Shown here piece by piece: positions 7,083 through 31,214 of a DNA stretch of 43,983 nt. The notes beneath the pieces were generated by a model. The model did not search any database and had not been told where the DNA came from. It was given only the letters and a program-made list of their open reading frames with translations. Position 1 is the first letter of the stretch. Each line of letters begins with the position of its first letter. A program made the position numbers and the translations under genes. This stretch comes from an uncultured Burkholderiales bacterium (GTDB lineage: Bacteria; Pseudomonadota; Gammaproteobacteria; Burkholderiales; Burkholderiaceae_C): positions 1-43,983 of the forward strand of contig CAIMNS010000129.1 in NCBI GenBank assembly GCA_903842945.1, read 5' to 3'.

Positions 7083-7843
7083 CAAGGCACCTCGCCTTTA
7101 TAAACCACCGTGTCATTGATCACCTGCATCAAGTCACCCGCAATGGGGTTGGAGATCTCCTCAAGGATTTGTCCAACCAAGCCTGGGGCGCGGGAAATCA
7201 ATGAAAATCCTCGCATGATCTTAAAAGGCACACCAATCTCCGCCAGCAAGGCGGCAATCCCCGCGGTTGCGTTGATGGTGATGTGCTTGCCAACGACCTC
7301 ATCGACCACGCGTGACATCAACAAGAGGGCATTGACGTAGTCACCCTTGACCTTGGCTTTCCTAGCAACTTCAAGAAGCTTAGGGGTTCTTGGATCATCT
7401 GGCTTGAAATCGTTGTGCCCAAAACCCGGAAGCGCTTTTTTACGTGCGCGGTGTTGGGTGATGATCTCTCTGGCCTTGGCCTCTTGATCAGGCGCTTTGA
7501 CGATGTCGTCCAAGTACTGGCCCACTTGCTCCATGACGCCGCCAAATTGACTTCCCATCCCAAGAAGACCCGCTGCCACGGCACCTTGCAAGGAGTCAGG
7601 CGCGTTGCGGTAAATCAACCTGGCGTTGAACCCTCCCGACATCCCATGGTCCATCAAAGTCACCAGCACAGCGTCCAAAATGCTGAGCTCTTCAGGGGTG
7701 GGCATTTTGCCCAAAATATAGAAGTAAATCATTTTTGAAAATGAAACTTCTCCAATCAAATCCCTGGACAAGTTCTTGCCTCGAATCGTTGCACCGGTTT
7801 CATCAAACGTGGACAAGCTAGAGCTTATTTCGCGGTTCGTCAT
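7082..7843 (-). CDS. Citrate-synthase-family protein, citryl-CoA lyase-like
   Basis: A 253-residue protein with the C-terminal catalytic part of the citrate synthase fold, the form found in citryl-CoA lyases. Recognisable blocks are LMDHGMSGGFNARLIYRNAPDSLQGAV, then PGFGHNDF (His143, corresponding to the PGFGHR histidine), and PFKIMRGFSLISRAPGLVGQ. By eye alignment, the usual LHGGA histidine is replaced by Phe100 in SQFGGV, and the usual catalytic aspartate is Asn191, so the chemistry may differ from true citrate synthase or citryl-CoA lyase. Inferred reaction: C-C cleavage or condensation of a CoA thioester such as citryl- or citramalyl-CoA, giving a 2-oxoacid. It overlaps the carboxyltransferase gene; a CoA-transferase and Bug receptors lie upstream on the same strand. 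Confidence 0.75.
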   Translation of the reverse strand: MTNREISSSLSTFDETGATIRGKNLSRDLIGEVSFSKMIYFYILGKMPTPEELSILDAVLVTLMDHGMSGGFNARLIYRNAPDSLQGAVAAGLLGMGSQFGGVMEQVGQYLDDIVKAPDQEAKAREIITQHRARKKALPGFGHNDFKPDDPRTPKLLEVARKAKVKGDYVNALLLMSRVVDEVVGKHITINATAGIAALLAEIGVPFKIMRGFSLISRAPGLVGQILEEISNPIAGDLMQVINDTVVYKGEVP

Positions 7844-7884
7844 AATTGTTCTTTAAGTTAAAGGGGTTGATGGTGAGGGGTTGT

Positions 7885-7898
7885 TGGCATCGATGCCA
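7885..7898. promoter_or_regulatory. 14-base perfect palindrome upstream of the citryl-CoA lyase-like gene
   Basis: TGGCATCGATGCCA is a perfect 14-base palindrome located 42-55 bases before the lyase start, in the 121-base gap between that gene and the Bug receptor gene upstream of it. It could be an operator for an internal promoter. No clear -35/-10 pair was identified beside it. Confidence 0.35.
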
Positions 7899-7964
7899 TG
7901 TTTTGAAAGCGTGGACGTTTTGAGTCTGAAGGGCACGGCCAACTGCGTTGGTCAAAGCAAGACC

Positions 7965-8933
7965 TCAATCGAGCTTGACGCCCACAGACTTGATCACCTT
8001 GCCCCACTTGTCGCTGTCAACTTTTAAAATCTGCGCCAACTCCTGAGGCGAGCTGCCCATGGGCGTGGCGCTGACATTTAAAAACATTTTCATGACCTCA
8101 GGCTCATGCAAGACGTCGCTGACGGCCAATGCAATCTTGTTCACCACACTGGCTGGCATGTTGGGAGGGCCGACCAAGTTACCCGACGTCGTTGCACTGA
8201 ATCCTGCTAGCGTCTCACTGATCGCAGGCACATCGGGCAATGAGGGGTTGCGCTTCAAGCTGCTCACAGCAATGGCTTTGACTTTGCCCGATTTGATTTG
8301 TGGCAAAGCGGCACTCAATTCAGAAAACATCAAATCGATATGCCCCCCCAAGACCGCCACAAGGGCTGGCCCCGTGCCATTGAAGGGAATGTGCGTGAAT
8401 TTGACCTCTGCAGTGGAGCTCAACATCTCTGCGGCCAAATGCCCCGTGCTTCCCGAGCCAGGTGAGCCATAGGTCAATTTACCCGGATTTTCTTTGGCAA
8501 AGCGAATGAGTTGCTGCATGTTGTCGATCGGAACGGTGGTTGCCACCAAAAGGACATTTGCGCTTTCATAGATCTGTGAGATGGGGCTGAACAACATCGA
8601 ATCAAAGTTCATCTTTGAGAACAAATGACGGTTGATGGTCAATGGTGGTGGCGGCGTTAACAACAGCGTGTGGCCATCTGGGGGTGAACGAAAGACGTAC
8701 TCAGAACCAATGTTGGCACTTCCCCCAGGTTTGTATTCCACCACCACGGGCTGTCCCCACTTTTGCTGCAAACGATCGCTCAAGAGTCGAAGGGACATGT
8801 CCGTGCCCCCTCCGGCTGCATAAGGTGAAATCAGTTTGATGGGTTTGGTGGGAAAGTCTTGCGACAGAGCTGATCCGAGAGTCAGCAGCTGTACAACAAC
8901 GAACGCGAGAAGTCCGAGGGGATTTAAAGTCAT
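7965..8933 (-). CDS. Bug/TctC-family periplasmic solute receptor 1
   Basis: A 322-residue tripartite tricarboxylate transporter receptor. The signal peptide is MTLNPLGLLAFVVVQLLTLGSALS, followed by DFPTKPIKLISPYAAGGGTD, the conserved ligand-loop entry of the family. The mid-protein GKLTYGSPGSGSTGHLAAE block, the IPFNGTGPALVAVLGGHIDLM block and the C-terminal domain are all typical. It binds a carboxylic acid (citrate-, glutarate- or nicotinate-like in known members) in the periplasm. No TctA/TctB membrane partners are in the window, the usual state for orphan Bug receptors in this order. It lies between the CoA-transferase and lyase genes, so its ligand is probably the substrate of that module. 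Confidence 0.93.
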   Translation of the reverse strand: MTLNPLGLLAFVVVQLLTLGSALSQDFPTKPIKLISPYAAGGGTDMSLRLLSDRLQQKWGQPVVVEYKPGGSANIGSEYVFRSPPDGHTLLLTPPPPLTINRHLFSKMNFDSMLFSPISQIYESANVLLVATTVPIDNMQQLIRFAKENPGKLTYGSPGSGSTGHLAAEMLSSTAEVKFTHIPFNGTGPALVAVLGGHIDLMFSELSAALPQIKSGKVKAIAVSSLKRNPSLPDVPAISETLAGFSATTSGNLVGPPNMPASVVNKIALAVSDVLHEPEVMKMFLNVSATPMGSSPQELAQILKVDSDKWGKVIKSVGVKLD

Positions 8934-8984
8934 GAGAGAGATGTCCTGCTGGGTCTTGTTAAGGTAGGTTCAACACGGTTTGGA

Positions 8985-10193
8985 CTATGTCGTTTTTTTG
9001 GAAGACTCAGCGCTTGATGCGATGGCGCCTTCCGACACAAAGGCATCGATGGTTTTGGCATCAAAGCCCAGTTGCTCGAGCACCTCCAGGCTGTGTTCAC
9101 CCAACACTGGGGGAGCCAAGTCCCCGCCTGAGCGGTCACCGTCATAGAGAACCGGTCGTTGCGTGTTTTTGACGACCCCCATGCTGGGGTGCTTCAACTC
9201 TTTAAATACACCGTTGTGCACGACCTGGGGATCGGCCACCACCTGGTCAATGTTTGAAATGGGCGCATGCGGAATATCGTGTTCAGTCAGGCACACTTGC
9301 CAATGGGCCATGTCGTGTTCAGCAAAGGCCGCTTGCAGCAACTGGGTCAAGACCTCGTAATGGGCTTGGCGCGCCAGCACTGTAGAAAAACGCTCGTCAC
9401 TGGCCCATTCTGGGTGACCAACAGCGGTGGTCAGATTTTGAAAAAACTTGTCCACCGAGGCCAAGTGCAACGCGACCCATCCACCATCTGCACATTGCAA
9501 AGCATAGGACTGCGAAGCACGGGGTCGGCTGATCGGTCCATGGACCTGACCAGAGGAAAAATAAGAAGCAAAGGCCGACGCACCAAAAGCAATCATGCTG
9601 TCAAGCATGGCCACCTCCACTCGCCGACCGACTTGCGTGCGTCCACGCTCGACCAAGGCGCCAAGAATACCGTAGGCCGCGTACATACCGCTCACCGTGT
9701 CTGCCACCGCTGGGCCCAAGATGCGCGGTGGTGTGGGCGCCATGGTTTGACTCAGGTACCCGCTCAAGGCTTGCGCAACGGTGTCGTAGCAAGGTCGGTC
9801 CACATAGGGCCCGGTGGCGCCAAAACCCGTGACAGAGCAATACACCAAGCGAGGATGGCGTTCGTGCACAGCATCCCAACCGAACCCAAGTTTATCGAGC
9901 ACCCCAGGTCGATAATTTTCAAGCAGCACATCAGACTGAGCGAGCAACTTGTCCAAAATAACTTTGGCGTGGGGGGACTTGAGGTTCAGGGCCAAACTGC
10001 GCTTACGAGCGTTGTAGGTCTGAAATTGAGAGCTGTATTGTGAGCCTTGATAGCCCCGAAAAGGGTCACCACTTCCAGGCTGCTCGACCTTGATCACATC
10101 GGCGCCTAAATCGGCCAACATCATCCCCGCGCAAGGACCGGTGATGAAGGTCCCCAACTCAAGGACACGAACATGTTCCAGCACTTTGGTCAT
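8985..10193 (-). CDS. CaiB/BaiF (family III) CoA-transferase
   Basis: A 402-residue CoA-transferase. Its N-terminus VLEHVRVLELGTFITGPCAGMMLADLGADVIKVEQPG is diagnostic of family III. The catalytic aspartate is Asp137 in CYDTVAQALSGYL, and the NARKRSLALNL and PENYRPG-like (LENYRPGVLDKLG) blocks are present. It moves CoA between acids through enzyme-bound anhydrides. The start at ATG 10193 is chosen by homology. There is no good ribosome-binding site, and an in-frame TTG at 10244 would add 17 residues without family similarity. It sits between two Bug receptor genes and upstream of the citryl-CoA lyase-like gene; the inferred role is activating the imported acid as a CoA thioester. Substrate unknown. 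Formyl-CoA transferase is a related option, but no oxalyl-CoA decarboxylase is present. Confidence 0.92.
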   Translation of the reverse strand: MTKVLEHVRVLELGTFITGPCAGMMLADLGADVIKVEQPGSGDPFRGYQGSQYSSQFQTYNARKRSLALNLKSPHAKVILDKLLAQSDVLLENYRPGVLDKLGFGWDAVHERHPRLVYCSVTGFGATGPYVDRPCYDTVAQALSGYLSQTMAPTPPRILGPAVADTVSGMYAAYGILGALVERGRTQVGRRVEVAMLDSMIAFGASAFASYFSSGQVHGPISRPRASQSYALQCADGGWVALHLASVDKFFQNLTTAVGHPEWASDERFSTVLARQAHYEVLTQLLQAAFAEHDMAHWQVCLTEHDIPHAPISNIDQVVADPQVVHNGVFKELKHPSMGVVKNTQRPVLYDGDRSGGDLAPPVLGEHSLEVLEQLGFDAKTIDAFVSEGAIASSAESSKKTT

Positions 10194-10229
10194 AAGGAGG
10201 CCCCATGCATTGGTTTCAAACGATTCAAA

Positions 10230-10246
10230 CCTTGGATCCGCCAAGG
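10230..10246. other. Inverted repeat in the leader of the CoA-transferase gene
   Basis: CCTTGG and CCAAGG, separated by five bases, form a perfect 6-bp hairpin within the 210-base gap between the CoA-transferase start and the preceding Bug gene. There is no T run, so it is not a terminator. It could be a leader structure or an operator half. Confidence 0.3.
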
Positions 10247-14025: not shown

Positions 14026-14628
14026 TCAGCCCAAGGTTAACTTGAATTTTAAATGACAATGGGCATGCCACCTTGACCAATCTCTTCCTGGATGCACGCT
14101 TGAACAATGGGTGCAAGTACGGGATTCTTCTGAAGACTCATAAAATTGATTGAAGGCTTTTGGCAAATCATCAACAATACTTTTCAACTGAATTTCAACC
14201 CGAGTCACGAGTGACGCGCAATTTGCACAATACCATTCAAACGCATCGATCTCATGGTCTGTACGATTGCGCTCTATCACGGTGCACAAGCTGCCCTCTT
14301 CCGTCCTTTGAGGAGAATGTCTCACATGAGGCGGGAGCAAGAAAACATCCCCCTCACGCAAATGCACCCGTTCAAATTGGCCCCTGTCAGCAATGAGGAT
14401 GGAGGCATTGCCCTTGAACTGATGGAAATACTCCTCAAAAGGGTCGTCGTGGAAATCGGTTCTTTGATTGGGGCCTCCAACCACAGTACAAATCAGATCT
14501 GAATTTTTCCATATTTGCTGGTTGTTGACGGGTGGCACAAGTTGAGAGGCATTGTCATTCAACCATGATGGCAAGTTGATCGGTTGACTGTAGTGATCTG
14601 CTCTGTACGTTGGATGGGATTTTTGCAT
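14026..14628 (-). CDS. nbaC: 3-hydroxyanthranilate 3,4-dioxygenase
   Basis: A 200-residue cupin that fits bacterial 3-hydroxyanthranilate dioxygenase along its whole length. Iron ligands are His60, Glu66 and His104; substrate-binding Arg56, Arg108 and Glu119 are present. The C-terminal rubredoxin-like CxxC pairs are intact (WYCANC and TCTHC). The family enzyme opens 3-hydroxyanthranilate to 2-amino-3-carboxymuconate semialdehyde, which cyclises to quinolinate unless removed. About 15 residues follow the usual VHPGR end, giving a His/Trp-rich tail. It is the last gene of the minus-strand arm, 12 bases after the DapA-like gene. No kynurenine-pathway partners (kynureninase, ACMS decarboxylase) are in the window, so it is more likely a ring-cleavage step of the local pathway than NAD biosynthesis (inferred). 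Confidence 0.9.
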   Translation of the reverse strand: MQKSHPTYRADHYSQPINLPSWLNDNASQLVPPVNNQQIWKNSDLICTVVGGPNQRTDFHDDPFEEYFHQFKGNASILIADRGQFERVHLREGDVFLLPPHVRHSPQRTEEGSLCTVIERNRTDHEIDAFEWYCANCASLVTRVEIQLKSIVDDLPKAFNQFYESSEESRTCTHCSSVHPGRDWSRWHAHCHLKFKLTLG

Positions 14629-14640
14629 GGTAAAAAGTAT

Positions 14641-15624
14641 CTAAATTTTTAAGCCTGATTGCTTAAAAGCACTTTGGATGACGTCCTTTTCAGCTGGGGT
14701 CAATTGCAGCAAAGGTCTTCTGACTTTTCCTCCAGATTGACCCAACAATTCTTGCCAATATTTTGCATGTGCCTGGGGCTTGCCCTTGGGCTTGGAAGCT
14801 TTAAAGGCCTGGCGAACCGGGTCCAAGCTGTCGTTGACCTTTTTGGCTGCTGCAAAATCCCCCTTAAAAGCCAATTGCGTGTATGCATTCATGCGTTGAT
14901 CAACCTTGGACTGAAGCAAGAAGGGTGGCGTTGAACAAAGGTACAGATTCCAATGAAGTTCCTCCATGTTTCGAAGCCAATCGTCCTCGTCGGGGTTGCT
15001 GATTTGTATCTCTGAGCCCGACAACTGTGTTAACTTTTTATACAAATCTCTGTCTGTGCTGTATTTGATGGCGACCATGTTGGGCAGCTTGGCTATTTTT
15101 GCGCACAACTCAGGAGACATCACATACCCACAATCAGGGTGGTTCCACATGGCAATACCAATGTCAAGTTGCTCGGACAAATAACGATAGTATTCATAAA
15201 TCGTCTCATCGGTATGGGCACCAAAATGAAGCACTGGGCTGTGAACAATCACATAATCTGCACCAATGTGCTCTGAGTAGCGAGCCAAATCCAACACCAC
15301 ATCTAAATTGGTGTCCGAACAAGAGGTGATGATCCCAGCATGCCCCACGCCCTTGCGGTCTCCCAAATCCTTTGCGACTTCAACGGATATCTCCATCATT
15401 TTCTTTCTCTCGGCAATGGACATGGAGAAAAATTCAGCTTGCTTGCCAGCGATAAAAATCCCGCCCAAATGAAGATCGTTCAACCAATGAAGAAGATTGG
15501 ACCGGTAGGCCTTTTCATCAAAATTCAATGCCTCATCAAAGGGCGTTAAGTTGGCAGCCCAAATTCCTCTCATGTGCTCTTTTGCGTAGGCTTTGGCATC
15601 GTTTTTTTTGTATTTCATGTTCAT
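14641..15624 (-). CDS. Dihydrodipicolinate synthase/N-acetylneuraminate lyase (DapA) family protein, divergent active site
   Basis: A 327-residue TIM-barrel protein of the class I aldolase DapA superfamily. The Schiff-base lysine is Lys187 in MVAIKYS. Other signature positions differ: the GTTGE phosphate/carboxylate loop reads AGKQAE (60-64 region), and the catalytic-tyrosine motif PYY reads Pro130-Val-Leu. It is therefore neither DHDPS nor a standard NanA. Related proteins act as hydratase-aldolases in aromatic breakdown, and such a role is possible here. The C-terminal extension (about 250-327) is Lys/Gln-rich. The ATG at 15624 overlaps the preceding gene's stop (ATGA) and follows a strong AAAGGAG. 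A second ATG two codons later is equally spaced. Confidence 0.83.
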   Translation of the reverse strand: MNMKYKKNDAKAYAKEHMRGIWAANLTPFDEALNFDEKAYRSNLLHWLNDLHLGGIFIAGKQAEFFSMSIAERKKMMEISVEVAKDLGDRKGVGHAGIITSCSDTNLDVVLDLARYSEHIGADYVIVHSPVLHFGAHTDETIYEYYRYLSEQLDIGIAMWNHPDCGYVMSPELCAKIAKLPNMVAIKYSTDRDLYKKLTQLSGSEIQISNPDEDDWLRNMEELHWNLYLCSTPPFLLQSKVDQRMNAYTQLAFKGDFAAAKKVNDSLDPVRQAFKASKPKGKPQAHAKYWQELLGQSGGKVRRPLLQLTPAEKDVIQSAFKQSGLKI

Positions 15625-17702
15625 ACTTCTCCTTTAGATCGTCTCAATAAGTTCCACAACTTCTCTGAAGTCAATGGAAAATCAATGTCCTCTTCAACCG
15701 ATAAGTTCAAGGCATCTCTTGCTGCGTTCAACAAAGAGGCCGGTACACCAATGCAACCCGCCTCCCCAACCCCCTTGGCCCCTAACAAATTATGAGGACT
15801 GGGTGTGCATTCGCTGTGAATCTGAATGTAAGGGATGTCGTCCGCCCTGGGCATAGCATAATCCATTAACGAACCGGTTAAAAGTTGTCCATGTCCATCG
15901 TAGATCATCTGCTCCATCATGGCTTGTCCGATGCCTTGGGCACACCCTCCAAGCAACTGATCTTTCACCAAGTCTGGATCGATTTGATGACCTGCATCAT
16001 CCACGTAGACCATGCGCTCGATTAAGGGTTTACCCGTATCAACATCGATGGAAAGTCTGCAGATGACACATCCATAGCCCCAGGCCTCTTTGGAATTGAA
16101 AACCTCATGAACCGCAATGGGAAGGGCCTGCCCGCTGTTCTTCAAACGAAGCACTTCGCGACAAGCTTTGACGATTGCACTTCCTCCAATGGCAATGCTG
16201 CGACTTGCCAATGTACCCAGGCCTGGGGGGCCGAAATCCGTGTCGCCCAAATTGACTTTGATCTTAGAGACACTGCAGTTGAGTTCTTTGGAAACTATAT
16301 TTGCAAACGTGGTCTCATGGCCTTGCCCCTGAGCGGGCGAGCCACAGTAAAGTGTTATCGCTTCATCGCTGTGCCATTCAATTGAGGCCGACTCCCAACC
16401 CATGCCACAAGGTTCTATATAAAAACCAATACCGATGCCCACGCACTCGCCTCTTTCTTGACGTCTCGACTGATCTTCTCTTTCTTTTTGATAGTCAAAG
16501 AGTTCGCAGGCTTTTAGCAAGATTTTGGAATAATGACCAGAATCCAGGACTTCACCAGTTGGGGTGACATAAGGCATTTCCTCAGAAGAAATCAAATGCT
16601 GGAGCCTGAAATCGACGCTGTCGATGTTGAAAGACTTGGCCGCTTTCTCCATCAAGGTTTCCATCAAGATGGCCGCCTCTGGCCGCCCGGCTCCACGATA
16701 AATGTTCACAGGCGCTTTGTGGCTCAGGTGGGCATGCCCTTCAATGTCAATCATGGGCACGTGGTAGGGGCCAGGTAAAATTCTGCAGGCATTGCGCAGT
16801 GGCACAACGGCTGAAAACGGCAACCAAGCCCCAAGATCAAAGGAGAGATGGGCTCGAAGGGCTTGAATTTTTCCGCTTGGAGAAAGTTTCAATTGTCCAA
16901 ATGAAGTTGATCCTCGTCCATGCATACCACTTAAAAAATCTTCAGACCTGGTGGACACCCACTTGATTGTCTTTTTTAGAAATTGACAACACAAAGCGAT
17001 GATCAACTCCTCCGGATACACAGAGGATTTGAATCCAAATGCACCGCCTACATTGACCATGGTCACTCGCACCCTAGACAAAGGAACATCCAAAATATTG
17101 GCCATGTCGCTTTGAGCTCTGCTGGGTGTTTGACTGCCCAAGAACAGATGATACGAATCTGTTTCGGACATGTACCTGGCCAACATTGAACGTGGCTCTA
17201 GGGGGAGTGCGACCACCCGTGGCTGATGGAGTTGAGCCGAGACGACGTTGGGGTTCGCATCGTCAAGTCCGTCGTGATTTTTAAAAACAGACGTGAAGAG
17301 GGCTTCATCGGTTTTGTTGACTTCGTAGGACGGGTCGCTTTCAATGTTCAATTCAATCGCCTCACACGCGTTGTGTGCTTCCCAATAACTATGGGCAAGA
17401 ACAACGCCCAAGGGTTCACCCACATAAGAGATTTTTTCAGACGATAAAACGGGAAATTCAATGGGCTTGTTGGATTTCAGCAAGGCATTGAATGCCGGCA
17501 TGACGAGGCCTTTAAAGTGATGGCCTTTAAAAACATCAATGACGCCAGGCATTTTTAGGGCCTTTGAGACATCCATGGACTTGATCCGTCCAGATGAAAA
17601 TTGACTTCGAAAAAAAACCGCATGCACGCATGGGCTTGAGTCGAAATCGTCAATGAATTTTCCAAGTCCCAGCAGCAAACGATCATCTTCAAGTCTAGAC
17701 AT
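15621..17702 (-). CDS. Xanthine dehydrogenase/CO dehydrogenase-family molybdopterin-binding (large) subunit
   Basis: A 693-residue molybdenum hydroxylase large subunit. It opens with SRLEDDRLLLGLGKFIDDF, the standard start of this family. The substrate-loop YRGAGRPEA (form II type, not the AYRCSFR loop of true CO dehydrogenase) and the catalytic glutamate in GAKGVGEAGCIG are present. Such subunits hydroxylate N-heteroaromatics, purines or aldehydes using molybdopterin cytosine dinucleotide. It is shorter than most (about 750-800). No FAD or [2Fe-2S] partner gene is in the window, so electrons must leave through partners encoded elsewhere. The ATG at 17702 has GAGG at good spacing; a TTG six codons upstream is less likely. 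It follows the MarR gene by 53 bases. Confidence 0.88.
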   Translation of the reverse strand: MSRLEDDRLLLGLGKFIDDFDSSPCVHAVFFRSQFSSGRIKSMDVSKALKMPGVIDVFKGHHFKGLVMPAFNALLKSNKPIEFPVLSSEKISYVGEPLGVVLAHSYWEAHNACEAIELNIESDPSYEVNKTDEALFTSVFKNHDGLDDANPNVVSAQLHQPRVVALPLEPRSMLARYMSETDSYHLFLGSQTPSRAQSDMANILDVPLSRVRVTMVNVGGAFGFKSSVYPEELIIALCCQFLKKTIKWVSTRSEDFLSGMHGRGSTSFGQLKLSPSGKIQALRAHLSFDLGAWLPFSAVVPLRNACRILPGPYHVPMIDIEGHAHLSHKAPVNIYRGAGRPEAAILMETLMEKAAKSFNIDSVDFRLQHLISSEEMPYVTPTGEVLDSGHYSKILLKACELFDYQKEREDQSRRQERGECVGIGIGFYIEPCGMGWESASIEWHSDEAITLYCGSPAQGQGHETTFANIVSKELNCSVSKIKVNLGDTDFGPPGLGTLASRSIAIGGSAIVKACREVLRLKNSGQALPIAVHEVFNSKEAWGYGCVICRLSIDVDTGKPLIERMVYVDDAGHQIDPDLVKDQLLGGCAQGIGQAMMEQMIYDGHGQLLTGSLMDYAMPRADDIPYIQIHSECTPSPHNLLGAKGVGEAGCIGVPASLLNAARDALNLSVEEDIDFPLTSEKLWNLLRRSKGEV

Positions 17703-17755
17703 GCATACAGCCTCAATCAAGGGATTCGTGAAGTTTAGATCAGGTGAGTGCTATT

Positions 17756-18247
17756 TTAAGAGGCATCGTCATTAGCAAGATTGTTCAAGATCGCGAGCAA
17801 TACTCTGCGCGTTGTAGCGACCTCTTGCGAGCTGATCCCTTTGACACTGACTTGGTTGACTTGCTCGGCCAAGGGCACCAAAATTTGCTTGAGTTTGCGC
17901 CCCTTTGGCGTCAAGTAAACGTAGAGGTTTTTTTTATTTTCAGCAGAATGACGTCTGGTGATGTACCCCAAACTTTCCATTTTCTTCATGGCTGAAAAAG
18001 TCGTGGGCTCCATGACGCCAGCTTGAACGCTCAGCTCACTTTGCGTCAAGCCATCTGACTCCCAAAGAATTCTTAAAAAGGTCCAATGCCCAAAGGGCAC
18101 ATCGTGTTGACCCAAGCGAACTTGAAGAGCACGTGAATACGCCCTACCCGAATCCCGCACCAGGTGCGCCAATCGATCGTCTGGCACAGCATTTTGCCAG
18201 TGCTTGAGGATCAGTTGCGTTTCTTCTTTGTTTTTTTTCATCACCAT
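17756..18247 (-). CDS. MarR-family transcriptional regulator
   Basis: A 163-residue winged-helix protein. The central DNA-binding part reads GHWTFLRILWESDGLTQSELSVQAGVMEPTTFSAMKKMESLGYITR, followed by the wing (RRHSAENKKNLYVYLTPKGRK), which is the typical MarR layout with helical dimerisation ends. Members usually repress nearby catabolic genes and release DNA when an aromatic acid or CoA ester binds. It is embedded in the catabolic minus-strand arm, and its ATG overlaps the stop of the Gfo/Idh/MocA gene. A likely operator is the palindrome at 20452-20465 (inferred from position and symmetry). Confidence 0.92.
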   Translation of the reverse strand: MVMKKNKEETQLILKHWQNAVPDDRLAHLVRDSGRAYSRALQVRLGQHDVPFGHWTFLRILWESDGLTQSELSVQAGVMEPTTFSAMKKMESLGYITRRHSAENKKNLYVYLTPKGRKLKQILVPLAEQVNQVSVKGISSQEVATTRRVLLAILNNLANDDAS

Positions 18248-19437
18248 TGAAGGGGTTCAACTTGATGGCTTGGCAAAACTGTTTTGTTGCTTTGGGCCGA
18301 CTCCAAGATGGCAAGACTGATTTCCGTCGTGGCACGGGCCCAATCCCCGCTGTGTAAAACAGGTTTTTGATGAACAACCGCATTGTAGAGTTCATCGATC
18401 ACCTCTTGACGCGGCACGACAGGGTCAGGGATTTCAACAAGCTGGGAATGGGTATCGCCATCGATCCACAAACCGTTAGGAACAGGCCTCAAATCAGCCT
18501 TGTCGCAACTGATGATCAAAGGACCAAAGTGCTGATGCTTCGCAGTGAGGTTGGGCTTAGCTTGGTTTTGCCAATCTGATGCCCCATAATTTCTAGCCGC
18601 TTTGAGGGCGGATTCTTCCTCTTTGGTTTGAACTGTCGCAAGTCTGCGCTTTGCCAAGCCGTAGGCCATGTTGGTTTTGTCTTGCCCCAACTCTCCCACC
18701 TGACCCATCCACATATCGCTGTCGAAATGCGCATATCCGCTGTAGGTGACAGTTGCAAATGCGCCATTGGCAAAGCTCAACAGCGCACTGTAAGCGCCCT
18801 GTGTCGGTCTATGGGGGTCCCATGCACCTGTGCGAGCAGAGACACTGGTCACCAACCCACCACCAAGCAATCTGACGATGTCCAGTTGATGCGCCGCTTG
18901 GCTGAAAAGAACACCCCCTCCTTGGCTCGTATCAAGCTCCTCAGGTCTTCGAGGACGGTATAAAAAATCAGTGTAGTTCAGTGCGGTGATCATTCTCACC
19001 TGACCAAACTCCCCACTTCTGATGCGATGGTAAGCTTGCAAGATGGGTGCATTGAAACTATGGCTATGACCCACCACCATGATCGTACCTGCTCTTTTGA
19101 CAGCTTGGATCATTCGGTTGCATTCGTCCAGGGTCAAGGCCATGGGTTTTTCAACCAAAATATGCTTGCCATTTGATGCAGCCAGTTCCACATGTCTGGC
19201 GTGCAGTTGATGCGGTGTCGCAATGTAGACCACGTCAAGGTCTGGATGGGCGCAAAGCTCTTCAATGCTTTTTACACATTTCGCTCCAAAGTCACGCTCA
19301 AATTGTGCGCATGCCTCTTGCTGAGGATCGGTTGCACATACCAACTGAACACGGACATCTTTGACAAAGCTGGGCAGCATCAAGGTGAAGGCACGACCTA
19401 AGCCCGCCACACCTATGCGAAGCACAGGCCCACTCAT
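18241..19437 (-). CDS. Gfo/Idh/MocA-family dehydrogenase, phthalate 4,5-cis-dihydrodiol dehydrogenase-like
   Basis: A 398-residue NAD(P)-dependent oxidoreductase. The N-terminal Rossmann motif is IGVAGLGRAF, the family EKP motif is ILVEKPMALT (about residues 93-102), and the C-terminal domain carries NYTDFLYRPRRPEELDTSQGGGVLFSQAAHQLDIVRLLGG. That last block is what I recognise from Pht4/OphB-type phthalate dihydrodiol dehydrogenases and their relatives. The expected role is to re-aromatise the cis-dihydrodiol made by a Rieske dioxygenase, giving a diol and NADH. Context supports this: the upstream gene is the Rieske reductase (ATGA overlap at 19434-19437), and a Rieske oxygenase is divergent from it. 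Substrate is unproven. Confidence 0.87.
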   Translation of the reverse strand: MSGPVLRIGVAGLGRAFTLMLPSFVKDVRVQLVCATDPQQEACAQFERDFGAKCVKSIEELCAHPDLDVVYIATPHQLHARHVELAASNGKHILVEKPMALTLDECNRMIQAVKRAGTIMVVGHSHSFNAPILQAYHRIRSGEFGQVRMITALNYTDFLYRPRRPEELDTSQGGGVLFSQAAHQLDIVRLLGGGLVTSVSARTGAWDPHRPTQGAYSALLSFANGAFATVTYSGYAHFDSDMWMGQVGELGQDKTNMAYGLAKRRLATVQTKEEESALKAARNYGASDWQNQAKPNLTAKHQHFGPLIISCDKADLRPVPNGLWIDGDTHSQLVEIPDPVVPRQEVIDELYNAVVHQKPVLHSGDWARATTEISLAILESAQSNKTVLPSHQVEPLQW

Positions 19438-20387
19438 CGGTCCAGCACCAATTCATTGGAGCGCGCTCGAGAGACACAGATCATGATGTTTTGACGTCTT
19501 TCATCATCGAGCAAGACCAGGTCTCGGTGCTCGACCTCACCAGACATGAAACCTGTTCGACACGAACCACACGTGCCGCTCTCGCAAGAGCTCGAGACGC
19601 TCTCGCCATTGGAGCGCAAAGCCTCCAGGATTGAAACATCGGCGCCAACGTGGATTCTCTTGCCTGTGGATTGTAAGACGATATCAAAAGGGGTGTTTTG
19701 CTCAAAGGCTGTTGGTGGCACACCAAAACTTTCAAAATGGATGTGTTCACTCGGCCAGTGTCCGGTCATGTCACGCACACTGTCCATCAAACCCTGAGGC
19801 CCACAACAATAGACATCCGCAGCGATGGGTTGCTCAAAGATGGGCCAAAAATCCAAGGCCTGCTGAAGATCTCCATGGTCGTGATGCAGTTGGACTCGAT
19901 CGACCAAGGAGGGCGACTTCAACTCTTCTAAAAATGCCGTGCTGAGGGCATCCCGGGTGCAGTAATACAGCTTAAAGTTGCTTTTCCCTTGACTGAGCAA
20001 ATGCCTGATCATAGAAAGAATGGGGGTGATGCCAATACCACCGGCCACAAAGACATGGAATTTTGCAGCGTCATGGAGCTCAAAGAGGTTGCTGCATTGA
20101 AGGACTTCTAGGAGATCACCCTCAAGCAAGCCATCGGCCATGCTTATTGAGCCTCCTCGCCCCAAGGCCTCTCGCTTGATCGCAATTTGCCACTGATCGG
20201 CATCGTTGGGTGAGCTGCACAAGGAATAATGACGGTGTGAACCCTTGGGTGTTTTGACGGTGATGTGGGCACCAGGCGTGAAGCTTGGCAAGGACAAGCC
20301 TTCGGGGTGAGCCAAGTCGAACATGAACACATCAGGGGTTAACGCCTGTTTGTGGGTCACTTTTAGAAATATTGAAGGTTCGCTCAT
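19434..20387 (-). CDS. PDR/VanB-family ferredoxin-type reductase for Rieske oxygenases
   Basis: A 317-residue three-domain reductase. It has an FMN-binding barrel with HRHYSLCSSP (about 51-60), an NAD domain with VAGGIGITPILSM (114-126), and a C-terminal plant-type [2Fe-2S] domain with Cys268, Cys273, Cys276 and Cys304 (CESGTCGSC...C). This order is that of phthalate dioxygenase reductase and VanB. It passes electrons from NADH to a Rieske oxygenase and is the only such reductase here for two oxygenases. ATG 20387 fits the family N-terminus. An in-frame ATG at 20435 would add 16 residues but leaves a leader of only a few bases from the predicted promoter. It is the first gene of the minus-strand arm. 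Confidence 0.92.
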   Translation of the reverse strand: MSEPSIFLKVTHKQALTPDVFMFDLAHPEGLSLPSFTPGAHITVKTPKGSHRHYSLCSSPNDADQWQIAIKREALGRGGSISMADGLLEGDLLEVLQCSNLFELHDAAKFHVFVAGGIGITPILSMIRHLLSQGKSNFKLYYCTRDALSTAFLEELKSPSLVDRVQLHHDHGDLQQALDFWPIFEQPIAADVYCCGPQGLMDSVRDMTGHWPSEHIHFESFGVPPTAFEQNTPFDIVLQSTGKRIHVGADVSILEALRSNGESVSSSCESGTCGSCRTGFMSGEVEHRDLVLLDDERRQNIMICVSRARSNELVLDR

Positions 20388-20424
20388 AAAAAAATTTGTG
20401 TACCCAGGGGTCACTTGGACGGAC

Positions 20425-20453
20425 TTGACAAGCATTGAAACATGCCATAATCT
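20425..20453 (+). promoter_or_regulatory. Sigma70 promoter for Rieske oxygenase I (plus strand)
   Basis: A perfect -35 TTGACA (20425-20430), a 17-base spacer and -10 TAATCT (20448-20453). Predicted transcription starts near 20460, about 45 bases before the oxygenase start at 20506. The -10 overlaps a palindrome. Confidence 0.72.
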
Positions 20454-20478
20454 TAGCGATCTAAGTATTTATTGGCAA
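20450..20478 (-). promoter_or_regulatory. Sigma70 promoter for the reductase-to-dioxygenase arm (minus strand)
   Basis: Read on the minus strand, -35 TTGCCA (20478-20473), a 17-base spacer and -10 TAAGAT (20455-20450). Predicted start near 20443. This gives a leader of about 55 bases for the reductase ATG at 20387. The promoter interlocks with the plus-strand promoter, so the two -10 boxes overlap. Confidence 0.62.
20452..20465. promoter_or_regulatory. Candidate MarR operator between divergent promoters
   Basis: The inverted repeat CTTAG-CGAT-CTAAG covers the end of the plus-strand -10 and start site, and also the spacer and -10 of the minus-strand promoter. A dimeric repressor bound here would block both arms. 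The MarR protein encoded in the minus arm is the obvious candidate (inferred). Confidence 0.55.
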
Positions 20479-20505
20479 GTTGAATTGTCGTATCGGGGGA
20501 CAAAA

Positions 20506-21771
20506 ATGCTGACATTTGAAGAAAATGAACTCTTGTGCAGAGTTGAAGGTGAAGCGGTCATGGGGCAATTGATGCGTCGCCATTGGCAAGTCATTTGCTT
20601 ATCGGAAGAGGTCAATGAACCCGACGGCACACCCATACGCGCTCGCGTGCTAGGGGAAGACTTGGTGGTTTTCAGAGACAGTGAAGGTCGTTTGGGCGTT
20701 TTAGGTGAACACTGTCCCCATCGAAGGGCCTCCTTGGTGTACGGTAGAAATGAGTTCTCAGGTTTGAGGTGTCTCTACCATGGATGGAAAATGGATGTGT
20801 CGGGTCAAGTGGTTGACATGAGCTCGGAGCCCAATGCAAGCGGCCTCAAAGAGAAAGTCAAACACATGGCTTACCCCGCGCATGAATGGGCGGGGATGGT
20901 TTGGGCCTACATGGGCCCAAGCGAGACCTTGACCCCCTTCACCCCACCTGCTTGGGCGCCGAATGCATCCGTTCGAGTCTCCATCTCTAAAATGGTGATC
21001 CCCTGCAATTGGGCGCAAATCATGGAAGGACAAATCGACTCGGCCCACAGCTCTAGCCTTCACTCTTCGGACATGACCCCTTCTAGGGTGCCAGGCGCCA
21101 CGGTCAATGACAGCGCTTGGTTGCGCCCTTCAACAGACAAAGCCCCAAGAATGCAGACCCAAAGGGATGACTATGGCTTTCGCTACGCTGCCATCAGGCG
21201 CCCTATTCAAAATGCCAACACCCATGAATACATTCGCGCAACCGTCTTTGTGGCGCCTTCAACGGCATTGATTCCTCCCAACAACATGTACAACGTGGCC
21301 AACATCAACACAGCCATCGACGACACCCACACAGCCTTTCACTTCATCGCATGGGGTCCCCATGAGACGACGCCGGACACGGACCAATGGCGTCGATTCA
21401 TGAGCACACAAATCGACGTTGATCTGGATGCCAATTACAAGCCCCACCGGGATGTGAGCAATCATTTTTTACAAGACCGCGCCGCAATGAAGTCCGGCAA
21501 CTTCACAGGCATCAAAGGCATCCCTAACCAAGACATGGCCATGTGGATCACCATGGGCCCGATTGCCGACCGCTCTCAGGACCGATTGGGCGCCAGTGAC
21601 ATGGCCGTTGTAGAGTTTCGCAAACAAATGATCGATGCTGCGAAACGCTTTGCAAAGGGTGAGCCCCCCATTGGCGTAGGCGAACTTAAAATTCCACCAA
21701 CGGTTTGCTCGTTTCAAGCCATCGTGCCTAAAGAGCTTGACTGGAGAGAGTTTGAAGCAGCACCAGTCTGA
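20506..21771 (+). CDS. Rieske non-heme iron aromatic ring-hydroxylating oxygenase I (phthalate 4,5-dioxygenase-like)
   Basis: A 421-residue oxygenase of the single-component phthalate dioxygenase type. The Rieske [2Fe-2S] ligands are Cys70, His72, Cys89 and His92 (CPH and CLYH). The mononuclear iron site is Asp178, His181 and His186 with Glu174 (EGQIDSAHSSSLH). It inserts O2 into an aromatic acid or demethylates one, using the reductase encoded divergently. The start at ATG 20506 is set by GGGGGA five bases before it; an upstream in-frame ATG at 20323 would run back into the reductase gene. Its nearest partners by context are the PDR reductase and the cis-dihydrodiol dehydrogenase-like gene. 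Confidence 0.92.
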   Translation: MLTFEENELLCRVEGEAVMGQLMRRHWQVICLSEEVNEPDGTPIRARVLGEDLVVFRDSEGRLGVLGEHCPHRRASLVYGRNEFSGLRCLYHGWKMDVSGQVVDMSSEPNASGLKEKVKHMAYPAHEWAGMVWAYMGPSETLTPFTPPAWAPNASVRVSISKMVIPCNWAQIMEGQIDSAHSSSLHSSDMTPSRVPGATVNDSAWLRPSTDKAPRMQTQRDDYGFRYAAIRRPIQNANTHEYIRATVFVAPSTALIPPNNMYNVANINTAIDDTHTAFHFIAWGPHETTPDTDQWRRFMSTQIDVDLDANYKPHRDVSNHFLQDRAAMKSGNFTGIKGIPNQDMAMWITMGPIADRSQDRLGASDMAVVEFRKQMIDAAKRFAKGEPPIGVGELKIPPTVCSFQAIVPKELDWREFEAAPV

Positions 21772-21898
21772 ACGAAGGTCAATGATTTCTCAAAACACCC
21801 TCATCCACTGAAGGTCTCTTTTTTTAGCCAAGTCCCTCTAGAGTTTTTTAAGAACCCTTTGACCTTGTCGGCTGCAGGTCGATGGGCTTTCTAGGCTG

Positions 21899-21927
21899 TT
21901 GACAAGAAGAGACTCCTATCGTATGTA
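21899..21927 (+). promoter_or_regulatory. Sigma70 promoter for the Bug receptor 4 - Rieske II pair
   Basis: TTGACA (21899-21904), a 17-base spacer and TATGTA (21922-21927) lie in the 275-base gap after oxygenase I. The predicted leader is about 113 bases and contains the inverted repeat at 21994-22009. The pair can therefore be expressed apart from oxygenase I. Confidence 0.6.
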
Positions 21928-21993
21928 CCAATTCATTATGTTCAAACATTGAAATAGTCTAAGCAGGGTGTGTGAATTCAATACCGCGGGCAT

Positions 21994-22014
21994 GTCTACT
22001 GGTGTAGACCGGTC
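21994..22014. promoter_or_regulatory. Inverted repeat in the leader of Bug receptor 4
   Basis: GTCTAC-TGGT-GTAGAC (21994-22009) is a perfect 6-bp inverted repeat with the same 4-base spacing as the 20452 palindrome. It overlaps a second perfect palindrome, GACCGGTC (22007-22014). The position, between the predicted start site and the ATG, suits a repressor site or an RNA leader hairpin. Confidence 0.4.
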
Positions 22015-22046
22015 CGTGAAGTCTTACAAAAAAAGGTCGTCGTGAT

Positions 22047-23006
22047 ATGAAATTTAAACTTCTCATTCAACTCGCTCTGTTGTCCATGGTGGGTCTCGTT
22101 CAGGCCCAGGACTATCCAAGCAAACCCGTCAAATTCTTGGTGGGCTACGTAGCAGGAGGCAGCCCTGACTTTGTAGCTAGGGCTCTAGCGCAAAAGCTCT
22201 CAGACATTTTGAACCAGCCGTTCTTGGTCGAAAACAAACCCGGTGGAGGCGGCATCACCGCCACTGCACAGTTGGTCAAGATGCCAGCGGATGGCTACTC
22301 TTTGCTTTTGGGAGACACCTCACAACTTGGCATCGCACCCTACATCTTTAAATCCCTTCCCTACGACACATTAAAAGATTTGACATCCATTGCTGGCCTT
22401 ACTTCAGAGCCCTTGATGATCGTCTCCAATTCAAAATCAAACATCAAAACGCTGAACGAACTGCTTCAAGGTGCAAAATCCAATCCCAACAAGTTCAACT
22501 ACGGATCCTCAGGTGTTGGGAGCATTCACCACATCGCCATGGAGGCCTTCAAAGCGGATGCTGGCGTAGACATCACCCACATCCCTTACAAGGGCAGCGG
22601 GCAATCTGTACCAGCCATTCTCTCTGGGGATGTGACCATTTTGGTCACGGCATTCACGGCCTCAGCGCCACACATCAAGGCCAATTCTCTCAACCTATTG
22701 GCCGTGACTTCCGCAAAACGCTGGTCTCGTTATCCAGACACCCCAGCCATTTCTGAGGTCATCAAAGATTTTGATTTTTCAGCTGAAACGGGCGTGTTGG
22801 CCCCTGCGGGCTTGCCGCCCAGCATCGTGCAAAAGCTCACCGTTGCCATCAAACAAGCCACCGAGAGCCCAGACTTCATCAGCAAGTTCAAAGAAACGGC
22901 CTTCTCAATTGGCTACATGAACCCTGCTGAGTACACAGAACAAATCAAGAAAAATCTTAAGAAATACGAAAGAGCAGTTGCTCTGTCAAAAATTCAAGCT
23001 GAATGA
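22047..23006 (+). CDS. Bug/TctC-family periplasmic solute receptor 4
   Basis: A 319-residue receptor with signal peptide MKFKLLIQLALLSMVGLVQA and then QDYPSKPVKFLVGYVAGGSPDFVAR. Other family blocks are FNYGSSGVGSIHHIAMEAF, ITHIPYKGSGQSVPAILSGDV and PAISEVIKDFDF. Placed between two Rieske oxygenase genes, it probably captures the aromatic acid they degrade. Bug receptors for aromatic carboxylates such as terephthalate are known (TphC). It has no membrane transporter partner in the window. ATG 22047 begins the signal peptide; the ribosome-binding site is weak and far (AAAAAGG). Confidence 0.93.
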   Translation: MKFKLLIQLALLSMVGLVQAQDYPSKPVKFLVGYVAGGSPDFVARALAQKLSDILNQPFLVENKPGGGGITATAQLVKMPADGYSLLLGDTSQLGIAPYIFKSLPYDTLKDLTSIAGLTSEPLMIVSNSKSNIKTLNELLQGAKSNPNKFNYGSSGVGSIHHIAMEAFKADAGVDITHIPYKGSGQSVPAILSGDVTILVTAFTASAPHIKANSLNLLAVTSAKRWSRYPDTPAISEVIKDFDFSAETGVLAPAGLPPSIVQKLTVAIKQATESPDFISKFKETAFSIGYMNPAEYTEQIKKNLKKYERAVALSKIQAE

Positions 23007-23050
23007 AGATCAGTTGTTTTTGTTGAACGATTGCCAACAACCGATACCTC

Positions 23051-24343
23051 ATGCTCACCCGCGAACAAAATGATTTACTGACTCAAGTTGGCCCTGCAAC
23101 GGGCATGGGCAAGTTACTGAGGTGCTACTGGATGCCTGTTGCTGGCGTCTCTGAATTTGACAGCATCCAAAGTAAACCCCTGAAAATCTTGGGCGAAGAC
23201 TTGGTGCTGTACAAAGACTTGTCGGGACGTTTCGGACTGGTTGACCGCAACTGCGTGCACAGAAGAGCCGATTTAAGCGCTGGCATGGTTGAAAAGCAAG
23301 GTATTCGCTGCCACTACCATGGCTGGCTTTTCAGCGCCAACGGGGACTGTCTAGAGCAACCCTACGAAGATACAGCTCATCCAGAAGCCAACAGCAAATC
23401 CAGACTCAAGATCAAGTCCTACCCCACCGAGGTGAAGGGGGGACTGATTTGGGCTTATTTTGGCCAGGCCCCTGCTCCACAGCTGCCCGACTGGGAGGCA
23501 TTTTCATGGAAGAATGGCTTTGTTCAAGTCGTCATCTCAAGTGTGCCTTGCAATTGGTTTCAATGCCAAGAGAACTCGATCGACCCCATCCATTTTGAAT
23601 GGATGCATGAAAATTGGGGCAACCGATTAAGAACAAACAAGCTTGAATTTGGCGCCAAACACTTGAAGGTGGACTTCAAAGAGTTTGAACATGGCTTTAC
23701 CTACCACCGCATCAAAGAAGGCAGTGATGAGCAAGATGAGGCCTGGCAAATAGGTCGCGTTTGTTTGTGGCCCAATGGGTTTTTCTTGGGCGAGCACTTT
23801 GAGTGGAGGGTTCCCATTGATGATGAAAACACCCTGAGTGTGACATGGAAATACACCCGAGTTCCAAAAGAGATGGAGCCCTTTGAGCAGTCGGTCATTC
23901 CAACTTGGTACGGCCCCGTCTTTGATGAAAAGGGGCAACCCATCAACACGCATGTCATGAACCAAGATTTTCTGGCATGGATGGGTCAGGGAACGGTTGC
24001 AGACCGAACGAAAGAGCATATCGGCGCAAGCGACAAAGGCATCGTCATGATGCGCAAAAGGTTTTTTGATGAACTGCAAAACCACGCCCATCAAAAGCCC
24101 CTCAAAGCGATCATCCTAGACGCCAGCATGAACCATCACATCCCACTTCCTATGGTCTATGGGCATCAAGTGACCCAAAGTAGAAGCATTCAAGAAATCA
24201 AAGAGCACAAAAGCTTGTATCCCTTTTACAAATCTTATGTTTTTCAAGCTGGACAACCCGATTGGGTCAAAAAAATGTCAAGCCAAGCCTTTGGGATGGA
24301 GGTTGAAGAATTCGATGGCATTGTCATACCCAGGCAAACCTAA
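23051..24343 (+). CDS. Rieske non-heme iron aromatic ring-hydroxylating oxygenase II
   Basis: A 430-residue paralogue of oxygenase I. Rieske ligands are Cys68, His70, Cys87 and His90 (CVH and CHYH). The iron site Asp178, His181, His186 with Glu174 (ENSIDPIHFEWMH) falls at exactly the same residue numbers as in oxygenase I. The C-terminal half differs clearly, so the substrate probably differs too. It lacks its own reductase and is assumed to share the one at 19434-20387. It starts 44 bases after Bug receptor 4, without a clear ribosome-binding site. It ends in a convergent gap with a strong terminator. Confidence 0.92.
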   Translation: MLTREQNDLLTQVGPATGMGKLLRCYWMPVAGVSEFDSIQSKPLKILGEDLVLYKDLSGRFGLVDRNCVHRRADLSAGMVEKQGIRCHYHGWLFSANGDCLEQPYEDTAHPEANSKSRLKIKSYPTEVKGGLIWAYFGQAPAPQLPDWEAFSWKNGFVQVVISSVPCNWFQCQENSIDPIHFEWMHENWGNRLRTNKLEFGAKHLKVDFKEFEHGFTYHRIKEGSDEQDEAWQIGRVCLWPNGFFLGEHFEWRVPIDDENTLSVTWKYTRVPKEMEPFEQSVIPTWYGPVFDEKGQPINTHVMNQDFLAWMGQGTVADRTKEHIGASDKGIVMMRKRFFDELQNHAHQKPLKAIILDASMNHHIPLPMVYGHQVTQSRSIQEIKEHKSLYPFYKSYVFQAGQPDWVKKMSSQAFGMEVEEFDGIVIPRQT

Positions 24344-30174: not shown

Positions 30175-30528
30175 ATGATGATCAAAGAAACTTGCATGGA
30201 TGTTGATGGACTAAAAATGGCTGATGCTATGCAAAACAAATTCGACGTCAATGTGTTGAAGGTGTTCTCACGTAAATACATATGGTGGAAAAGTCCCGAA
30301 GATGCAATCTTATGTCCTCAAAGAGTGATTGCACAAGTGATGAACATCGGTGACTATGAGGACGTCCAAAAACTAGCTAACCAAATAGGGGATGAAGCCT
30401 TAAGAAATGCCTTGCTCCAAGCTCAACCGGGTCAGTTCAATGAGCGGTCTTGGTCCTATTGGCACTATCGCCTTGGTTTGGCATCCCATCCCAATTTGCC
30501 ACCTTTACCCATCAGAAAATTAGCATGA
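30175..30528 (+). CDS. Antitoxin-like partner of an AbiEii-type nucleotidyltransferase
   Basis: A 117-residue protein of the small family that regularly precedes AbiEii/DUF1814 nucleotidyltransferase genes in betaproteobacteria. The recognisable part is VFSRKYIWWKSPEDAILCPQRVIAQVMNIGDYEDVQKLANQIGDEALRNAL, then PGQFNERSWSYWHYRLGL and PPLPIRKLA. No catalytic motif is seen. The stop overlaps the next ATG (ATGA), so the two are translated together. The start may be 30175 or internal (30196 or 30217), since the conserved part begins near residue 28. By analogy it would neutralise or regulate the toxin. The functional call is inference from pairing. Confidence 0.72.
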   Translation: MMIKETCMDVDGLKMADAMQNKFDVNVLKVFSRKYIWWKSPEDAILCPQRVIAQVMNIGDYEDVQKLANQIGDEALRNALLQAQPGQFNERSWSYWHYRLGLASHPNLPPLPIRKLA

Positions 30529-31214
30529 CTTTTAAGCCGTGCATGAGCATCCTGCCAGCGATTCAACAACGTCTATGGCCTGCTCTTGCTCCTACCAAAA
30601 GACTCGGTTTCGTTTTATATGGTGGTACTGCCATCGCACTTCGTTGTGGTCATAGGCAATCGATTGATTTTGACTTTTTTTCAGACGAACCCGTGAACAG
30701 AGAGTCCCTGCTGGGTTCAATGCCGCTCTTAGAAAAAGCCACCGTCATCCAAGATCAAGGCCAAGCATTCACTTTGTTGGTCAACTATGTTGACGACGTG
30801 GACTCCAACGTCAAAGTCTCATTTTTCGGCGCCTTGAAGATGGGCCGAGTAGGCACACCTGAGATAACCGAAGACCATGTCATTCAAGTTGCTTCACTTG
30901 ATGACTTGATGGCAACAAAACTCAAAGTCATTCTTCAACGTGCTGAGGCCAAAGACTATAGTGATATTGATGCGATGATCGAAAATGGCATCAGTCTCTC
31001 AAAAGGCTTATCGAGCGCCCGATTAATTTTTGGTCCCAATTTTCAACCCAGCGAGAGTCTAAAGGCGCTGGGATACTTCAAGGATGGCGACCTCCATTCT
31101 TTGTCGAAAGCTACAAAAGAGCGCCTTGTCCGTGCAGTGAGCGCCGTTAAAGATTTACCTCAAGTTGCACTTCTTTCACCCAAGCTCCACGTCACGACTC
31201 AGACAAACAAGTGA
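30525..31214 (+). CDS. AbiEii/AbiGii-family nucleotidyltransferase (toxin-like)
   Basis: A 229-residue nucleotidyltransferase of the AbiEii/DUF1814 group. The NTase signature is FVLYGGTAIALRCGHRQSIDFDFFSD, combining the GG-T/S loop and the metal-binding DxD. The later KxKDYxDIxAM region (ATKLKVILQRAEAKDYSDIDAM) is also typical. Related proteins inhibit growth as toxins of type IV-like toxin-antitoxin or phage-abortive systems by adding nucleotides to tRNA or other targets. The start at 30525 overlaps the stop of the preceding gene. The pair is a compact two-gene insertion between the nucleotidase and formate dehydrogenase regions. Confidence 0.8.
   Translation: MTFKPCMSILPAIQQRLWPALAPTKRLGFVLYGGTAIALRCGHRQSIDFDFFSDEPVNRESLLGSMPLLEKATVIQDQGQAFTLLVNYVDDVDSNVKVSFFGALKMGRVGTPEITEDHVIQVASLDDLMATKLKVILQRAEAKDYSDIDAMIENGISLSKGLSSARLIFGPNFQPSESLKALGYFKDGDLHSLSKATKERLVRAVSAVKDLPQVALLSPKLHVTTQTNK

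Follow-up and report, generated by a model that had tools for sequence, protein, structure and literature searches.

3-Hydroxyanthranilate (3-HAA) is central among the products of tryptophan catabolism, and it is here that the route to quinolinate and NAD branches off. Its ring is opened by the 3-hydroxyanthranilate 3,4-dioxygenase (HAO) family to give 2-amino-3-carboxymuconate semialdehyde, and the classical lower pathway continues from there with ACMSD, a RidA-type deaminase, muconic semialdehyde dehydrogenase and the meta enzymes, using the genes ACMSD, RidA, dmpG, dmpF and FAH. Phthalate 4,5-dioxygenase systems are found in the oph/pht clusters of Polaromonas naphthalenivorans plasmid pPNAP04 and Variovorax WDL1 plasmid 2, which have an oxygenase, a reductase, a dehydrogenase and a MarR regulator, together with a protein in the OphC position that is annotated in Polaromonas as 4,5-dihydroxyphthalate decarboxylase and is 77% identical between the two plasmids. 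Here we describe a locus of an uncultured, probably freshwater Burkholderiales bacterium that shares HAO with the first system and the oxygenase, reductase, dehydrogenase and MarR types with the second. It lies at positions 14026-24343 of contig CAIMNS010000129.1. The window analyzed spans this contig, 43,983 bases long, in full, and the draft genome to which it belongs totals 3.2 Mb.

The locus is composed of two modules, a phthalate 4,5-dioxygenase system and a set of three genes encoding a CoxL-like molybdenum (Mo) enzyme, a DapA-like protein and HAO. Our reading, to which we give a probability of about 0.5, is that the second module is an alternative lower branch for 3-HAA that has been joined to the first. 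The genes are as follows.

14026..14628, minus strand: HAO, 3-hydroxyanthranilate 3,4-dioxygenase, 200 amino acids (NF009763, TIGR03037)
14641..15624, minus strand: DapA-like putative hydratase-lyase, 327 amino acids (PF00701)
15621..17702, minus strand: CoxL-like Mo-hydroxylase large subunit, putative aldehyde oxidoreductase, 693 amino acids (PF20256, PF02738, PF01315)
17756..18247, minus strand: MarR regulator, phthalate type (PF01047)
18241..19437, minus strand: OphB, phthalate dihydrodiol dehydrogenase, Gfo/Idh/MocA family (7wzd, 476 bits)
19434..20435, minus strand: OphA1, PDR/VanB-type reductase (PF00111, PF00175, PF00970)
20506..21771, plus strand: OphA2/PDO, oxygenase of phthalate 4,5-dioxygenase (7fjl, 716 bits)
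22047..23006, plus strand: TctC receptor of a tripartite tricarboxylate transporter (PF03401)
23051..24343, plus strand: RO2, second Rieske oxygenase (PF00355; weak PF19301)

All the genes named in a preliminary description of this DNA lie at or near the positions it gave, and the family matches agree with it. Two starts are revised. That of PDO was annotated at 20323, and alignment places it near 20506; the open reading frame of CoxL extends to 17720, and the protein probably starts at the ATG at 17702. The genes form two divergent arms, with PDO, TctC and RO2 in that order on the plus strand. On the minus strand the order is OphA1, OphB, MarR, CoxL, DapA-like and HAO, with gaps of -4, -7, +35, -4 and +12 bases; the third of these becomes about +53 bases if CoxL starts at 17702. 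Because the six genes lie on one strand with small gaps, they could form a single transcript, as predicted from spacing. Scans for promoters and terminators gave no more sites than shuffled controls. The GC content is 51.5-53.5% in OphA1, OphB and PDO, compared with 46-48% in CoxL, the DapA-like gene and HAO, and 48% in MarR. This contrast is compatible with two joined sources, although it proves nothing.

HAO scores 246 bits with NF009763 (cut-off 220) and 222 bits with TIGR03037 (cut-off 146), both of them equivalog models, and 101 of 170 residues are identical to 1yfu, which bears out the earlier call of a 3-hydroxyanthranilate dioxygenase. Ten positions that we take to be iron ligands, substrate contacts and cysteines are all kept.

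The genes OphA1, OphA2, OphB and MarR constitute, as judged by sequence, a phthalate 4,5-dioxygenase system of a type already known. PDO aligns over 418 residues with 7fjl, which we take to be the phthalate dioxygenase of KF1. Residues S182, R207 and R244 are kept; a paper on the related isophthalate enzyme names them as phthalate-binding in the KF1 enzyme (PMC12445078). The closest solved match of OphB, 7wzd, is a 4,5-dihydroxyphthalate dehydrogenase, so that the "dihydrodiol dehydrogenase" of the preliminary description is now placed as a Gfo/Idh/MocA protein nearest to that enzyme. Identities to the genes of pPNAP04 are 69% for the oxygenase, 59% for OphB, 49% for the reductase and 64% for MarR. 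MarR is also 60% identical to that of the Variovorax cluster, where OphA1, OphB and MarR follow one another on one strand in the same order as in the window. The Polaromonas and Variovorax clusters include the OphC-position protein; in the window CoxL, the DapA-like gene and HAO follow instead, and no match to OphC (4,5-dihydroxyphthalate decarboxylase) was found anywhere in the contig. There are 11 OphC-like matches in the source genome, the best three with identities of 48, 46 and 44%. Given 77% between the two plasmid proteins, a clear OphC orthologue was not found in the genome. One OphC-like protein (L159, G000:C278) is encoded in an uninterrupted series of genes that also includes TctC receptors and two sets of CoxL, CoxS and CoxM.

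The second module recurs elsewhere. A search of named genomes for the DapA-like protein gave 388 candidate stretches, of which the best 80 were kept. They come from Burkholderiales (Limnohabitans, Acidovorax, Roseateles, Paucibacter, Hydrogenophaga and others) and from Alphaproteobacteria. HAO is present in 71 of these loci, CoxL in 61 (with a cut CoxL in three more), aspartate dehydrogenase in 34 and an aldehyde dehydrogenase in 4; full flanks were available in just 35 of the 80, so absences are uncertain. Plasmids of Phaeobacter and Roseateles XES5 carry the DapA-like gene, HAO, aspartate dehydrogenase, an NAD-dependent "succinate-semialdehyde dehydrogenase" and kynureninase in one cluster. 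The DapA-like gene lies with an aldehyde dehydrogenase in plasmids of Ruegeria and Rhizobium, where no kynureninase is annotated nearby, and clusters with CoxL in those of Chelatococcus and Paroceanicella. In the combined table of 93 rows, aspartate dehydrogenase occurs in 46 and kynureninase in 5. An amino-aromatic substrate, as proposed earlier, fits the CoxL-DapA-HAO part of the locus, with such neighbors among its relatives. Close phthalate homologues, defined as PDO at at least 45% identity or OphB at at least 40%, were found in none of the 93 other rows. The combination is unusual, as had been suggested. CoxL-DapA-HAO is met again elsewhere; its junction with close phthalate homologues was seen only in the window. 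The proposal of one new pathway acting on one substrate is not supported, the oxygenase, reductase, dehydrogenase and regulator being a phthalate system of a known type and the CoxL-DapA-HAO set recurring without close phthalate homologues. Two functions under one regulator seem more likely than a shared substrate. Nor is the complete gene set claimed earlier confirmed, as the contig gave no match to OphC, CoxS or CoxM.

Two patterns of mutual exclusion suggest what the module does. CoxL occurs in 70 of the 93 rows and aldehyde dehydrogenase, counted at at least 45% identity to the Phaeobacter enzyme, in 7, and they never occur together. The probability of such a lack of overlap arising by chance is 2.6e-5, or 3.3e-5 without three duplicate rows, both values being uncorrected for relatedness. 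This suggests that the two enzymes perform the same step, the oxidation of a semialdehyde. As an aldehyde dehydrogenase replaces CoxL in other clusters, the Mo enzyme is more likely to act as an oxidoreductase on an aldehyde than to hydroxylate a ring. The second pattern involves ACMSD. Among 399 genomes of the order, HAO was found in 25; twelve of these carry the DapA-like gene and 11 carry ACMSD, while no genome combines them and two are without either (chance of no overlap among the 25 HAO genomes 1.7e-5). The three order-wide samples, for DapA-like, HAO and ACMSD, have agreeing handles and were taken as identical. The count rests on 13 genomes with a DapA-like match of at least 53%; a further 15 with matches of 33-37% were left out, and none of these appears in the HAO or ACMSD list.

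Gene neighborhoods give the same picture. In 87 DapA-type stretches there was a single weak match to ACMSD (25%, in L087), and none to RidA, dmpG, dmpF or two FAH genes. For comparison, eight HAO clusters without the DapA-like gene were drawn from 77 plasmid records with HAO. HAO is 52-62% identical to theirs; ACMSD is present in seven, a RidA match in all eight (one partial), and the DapA-like gene, CoxL and aspartate dehydrogenase in none. The source genome (G000) has no ACMSD match at E 1e-60, and a Pfam scan of 30 window open reading frames found no RidA or meta enzymes, no BLAST search of the window having been made. Where the classical pathway has ACMSD, RidA, dmpG, dmpF and FAH, the relatives of the window module have the DapA-like protein together with CoxL or aldehyde dehydrogenase, in many cases with aspartate dehydrogenase as well. 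There is good genomic support for CoxL-DapA-HAO as a widespread branch that stands in for the ACMSD route.

By sequence score the DapA-like protein is not DapA. It falls under every NCBIfam cut-off for the DapA family (TIGR00674 69 bits, with 206 required). An AlphaFold2 model has a mean pLDDT of 93, and its best Foldseek matches are to DHDPS (TMq 0.79). The predicted fold is the TIM barrel of the DapA/N-acetylneuraminate lyase family, with the Schiff-base lysine, K187, identified by alignment. K61, Q62, W160 and K187 are invariant in an alignment of 45 sequences. Where DapA has its catalytic tyrosine and the threonine pair of GTTGE, this protein has W160 and K61-Q62. NahE and PhdJ hydratase-aldolases were not named among the best 60 of its 112 solved matches.

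CoxL matches the large subunit of CO dehydrogenase (CoxL, 8uem) with 307 bits, and belongs to the same large-subunit family. The CSFR loop is a mark of CO dehydrogenase; 8uem has YACSFR where the window protein has YRGAGR. The window CoxL has neither this loop nor, on its contig, the CoxS and CoxM partners of an aerobic CO dehydrogenase. In a quick tree of 66 sequences it forms a group with L052 and L093 (support 100), and this group branches from within CoxL proteins accompanied by CoxS and CoxM. A survey of 85 sources, accompanied by a Pfam check of two loci, detected CoxS in 50 and CoxM likewise in 50. Neither was found near CoxL in eight loci with full flanks (L117, L121, L126, L128, L129, L131, L135 and L137). 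There are 16 CoxS-type matches in the source genome. Eleven surroundings were examined; in ten the match apparently stands beside a CoxL of its own (including C49, where no open reading frame was called for CoxS itself), and in one (C277) the situation is unclear. The clade of the window departs from near-invariant columns at one position in HAO, three in the DapA-like protein and seven in CoxL, several of these changes being conservative. With so few columns changed, its chemistry is probably the same as that of its relatives.

The HAO step comes from a characterized family and, like the replacement of the ACMSD route by the remaining genes, has genomic support; the chemistry after HAO we infer. 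HAO would open 3-HAA to 2-amino-3-carboxymuconate semialdehyde. CoxL, or elsewhere CoxLSM or the NAD-dependent aldehyde dehydrogenase, would oxidize the semialdehyde to 2-amino-3-carboxymuconate (C7H7NO6). The DapA-like enzyme could then act through its Schiff-base lysine, adding water and making a retro-aldol cleavage into C4 and C3 fragments, which would be iminosuccinate (C4H5NO4) or oxaloacetate, together with malonate semialdehyde (C3H4O3). The equation 2-amino-3-carboxymuconate + water = iminosuccinate + malonate semialdehyde balances. Production of iminosuccinate would give a role to aspartate dehydrogenase which, where present, could take up the C4 nitrogen product. The full proposal, that a widespread second branch keeps the carboxyl group lost through ACMSD, employs Mo- or NAD-dependent oxidation and a DapA-like split to iminosuccinate and malonate semialdehyde, and was recruited into a phthalate operon in the window, is put forward tentatively, as rather less probable than not. 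No description of the branch was found among the literature matches listed, in which subscription journals are sparsely covered, and it is apparently undescribed. If correct, there would be a second bacterial lower branch for 3-HAA, with no overlap with the textbook route in the sampled genomes, and the DapA family would gain a new reaction. Many genome annotations such as "dihydrodipicolinate synthase family protein", "xanthine dehydrogenase family protein" and "succinate-semialdehyde dehydrogenase" would be corrected. Three or four proteins would suffice to test the branch.

A number of observations weigh against our reading. A search of the window contig did not find CoxS or CoxM, and the stem leading to the CoxL clade of the window is long, at 0.87 changes per site, which could signify a changed role. 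The DapA-like protein is without the tyrosine and threonine pair of DapA, and because these are replaced the retro-aldol step is not assured. Aspartate dehydrogenase was not found in the window; the only one in the source genome sits in another cluster, with a thiamine-diphosphate enzyme. Kynureninase has no match in the source genome, which leaves no evident supply of 3-HAA there. We found no assay of any branch enzyme other than HAO. The exclusion patterns also have loose ends. Genes of the aldehyde dehydrogenase family more distant from the Phaeobacter enzyme occur in L128 (32% identity), alongside CoxL, and in L104 (30%). L086, L087 and some other DapA-like loci have neither oxidizing enzyme in the fetched stretch, although L086 and L087 each carry the DapA-like and HAO pair. 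Two HAO genomes (G143 and G180) have neither the DapA-like gene nor ACMSD, and a further genome (G100) has the DapA-like gene without HAO. Lastly, ring oxygenases are sometimes close by. In L120, from Rhodospirillales, a PDO-like gene (37%) and a MarR gene (39%) lie within 6 kb of the DapA-HAO pair; in L072 the module is followed by a reductase and a short match to RO2, and L124 has a reductase. In L120 a ring oxygenase and the lower branch may have come together a second time, independently, and these distant matches leave open the idea that ring oxygenases feed the branch in some species. The L120 genes, a distant PDO-like oxygenase and MarR upstream of the pair, occupy 4378-7168 of that stretch.

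Such neighbors have a place in a single merged pathway, in which OphA1A2 and OphB would convert a phthalate-type acid into a diol cleaved by HAO, for example the oxygen analogue 2,3-dihydroxybenzoate, with the nitrogen-free products oxaloacetate and malonate semialdehyde. This route would explain the missing aspartate dehydrogenase and OphC, the latter absent from the contig and represented in the genome only by the distant relatives noted above. The minus-arm genes on a single strand with small gaps are in keeping with it, as are the ring-oxygenase parts near L120, L072 and L124. A precedent is the opa pathway of Pseudomonas PTH10 (PMC6362003), in which phthalate is reportedly broken down via 2,3-dihydroxybenzoate and meta cleavage of the ortho-substituted benzoate. 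That pathway, however, has different oxygenase, dehydrogenase and ring-cleavage classes, and a decarboxylase. PDO, moreover, keeps the residues of phthalate 4,5-dioxygenase, whose product does not suit HAO, while HAO keeps the positions linked to 3-HAA, and no other row pairs the module with close PDO or OphB homologues. We therefore regard the merged pathway as unlikely. A route of naphthoate type was also considered, in which cupin cleavage, a PhdJ-like aldolase and a Mo aldehyde oxidase would lead to phthalate and thence to the phthalate enzymes. It was rejected because HAO keeps its 3-HAA positions and CoxL-DapA-HAO exists elsewhere without close phthalate homologues.

Other explanations retain 3-HAA and alter what follows. 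The product of HAO might cyclize by itself to quinolinate, a reaction that is known (PMC7842363), after which CoxL would hydroxylate the pyridine and the DapA-like protein help to open it. Quinoline 2-oxidoreductase and nicotinate dehydrogenase are indeed among the related solved Mo enzymes, but one type of aldehyde dehydrogenase replaces CoxL in seven rows, never alongside it, and no enzyme opening a hydroxypyridine ring is annotated in seven DapA-type plasmid stretches. We judge this quite improbable, and hardly differently the suggestion that the DapA-like protein is a different decarboxylase substituting for ACMSD and followed by the classical 2-aminomuconate route, which we would place at the foot of the same range. 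The exclusion between the DapA-like gene and ACMSD would be expected of a substitute, and by score the top NCBIfam match of the DapA-like protein, far under its cut-off, is the DapA-family dehydratase KdgD. KdgD also decarboxylates. Yet the RidA, dmpG, dmpF and two FAH genes of the classical route are unmatched in the 87 stretches, and that route offers no obvious function for aspartate dehydrogenase. Finally, the window genes could be decaying or mis-joined, with CoxL partnerless and the contig joining two unrelated pieces. The absence of CoxS and CoxM from the contig, the long CoxL stem, the single observation of the junction and the drop in GC between the modules would all accord with this. 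Against it, the reading frames are open, invariant residues are mostly retained, CoxL without CoxS recurs at other loci, and most adjacent genes overlap by a few bases in the manner of an operon; we consider decay or mis-joining very improbable. Our preference thus remains a phthalate system joined to an alternative 3-HAA branch.

The second Rieske oxygenase stands apart from PDO. Its best solved relative is 7fhr (167 bits), and it is 28% identical to the Polaromonas PDO. Relatives at 49-66% identity are present in other genomes of the same family. In four loci (L227, L228, L230 and L232) such a relative adjoins a PDO-like gene (32-34%) and TctC, with a reductase in three of the four, and in L221 it adjoins a protein weakly matching class III extradiol dioxygenases. 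A single cluster in L226 (G769:C1), possibly a further phthalate-like pathway, brings together relatives of RO2 (58%) and OphB (58%) with several TctC genes and an acyl-CoA ligase.

Elsewhere in the window, the minus strand at 3594-10244 encodes a biotin carboxylase, a biotin carrier protein, a PYC/OAD-type carboxyltransferase, a citryl-CoA lyase-like protein, a TctC receptor and a class III CoA-transferase. From its gene content this cluster looks like a route from a citrate-type acid to oxaloacetate or pyruvate. A nucleotidyltransferase of AbiEii type lies at 30450-31214, and an operon resembling NAD-linked formate dehydrogenase, with FdhD, is recognized by Pfam at 31578-37335.

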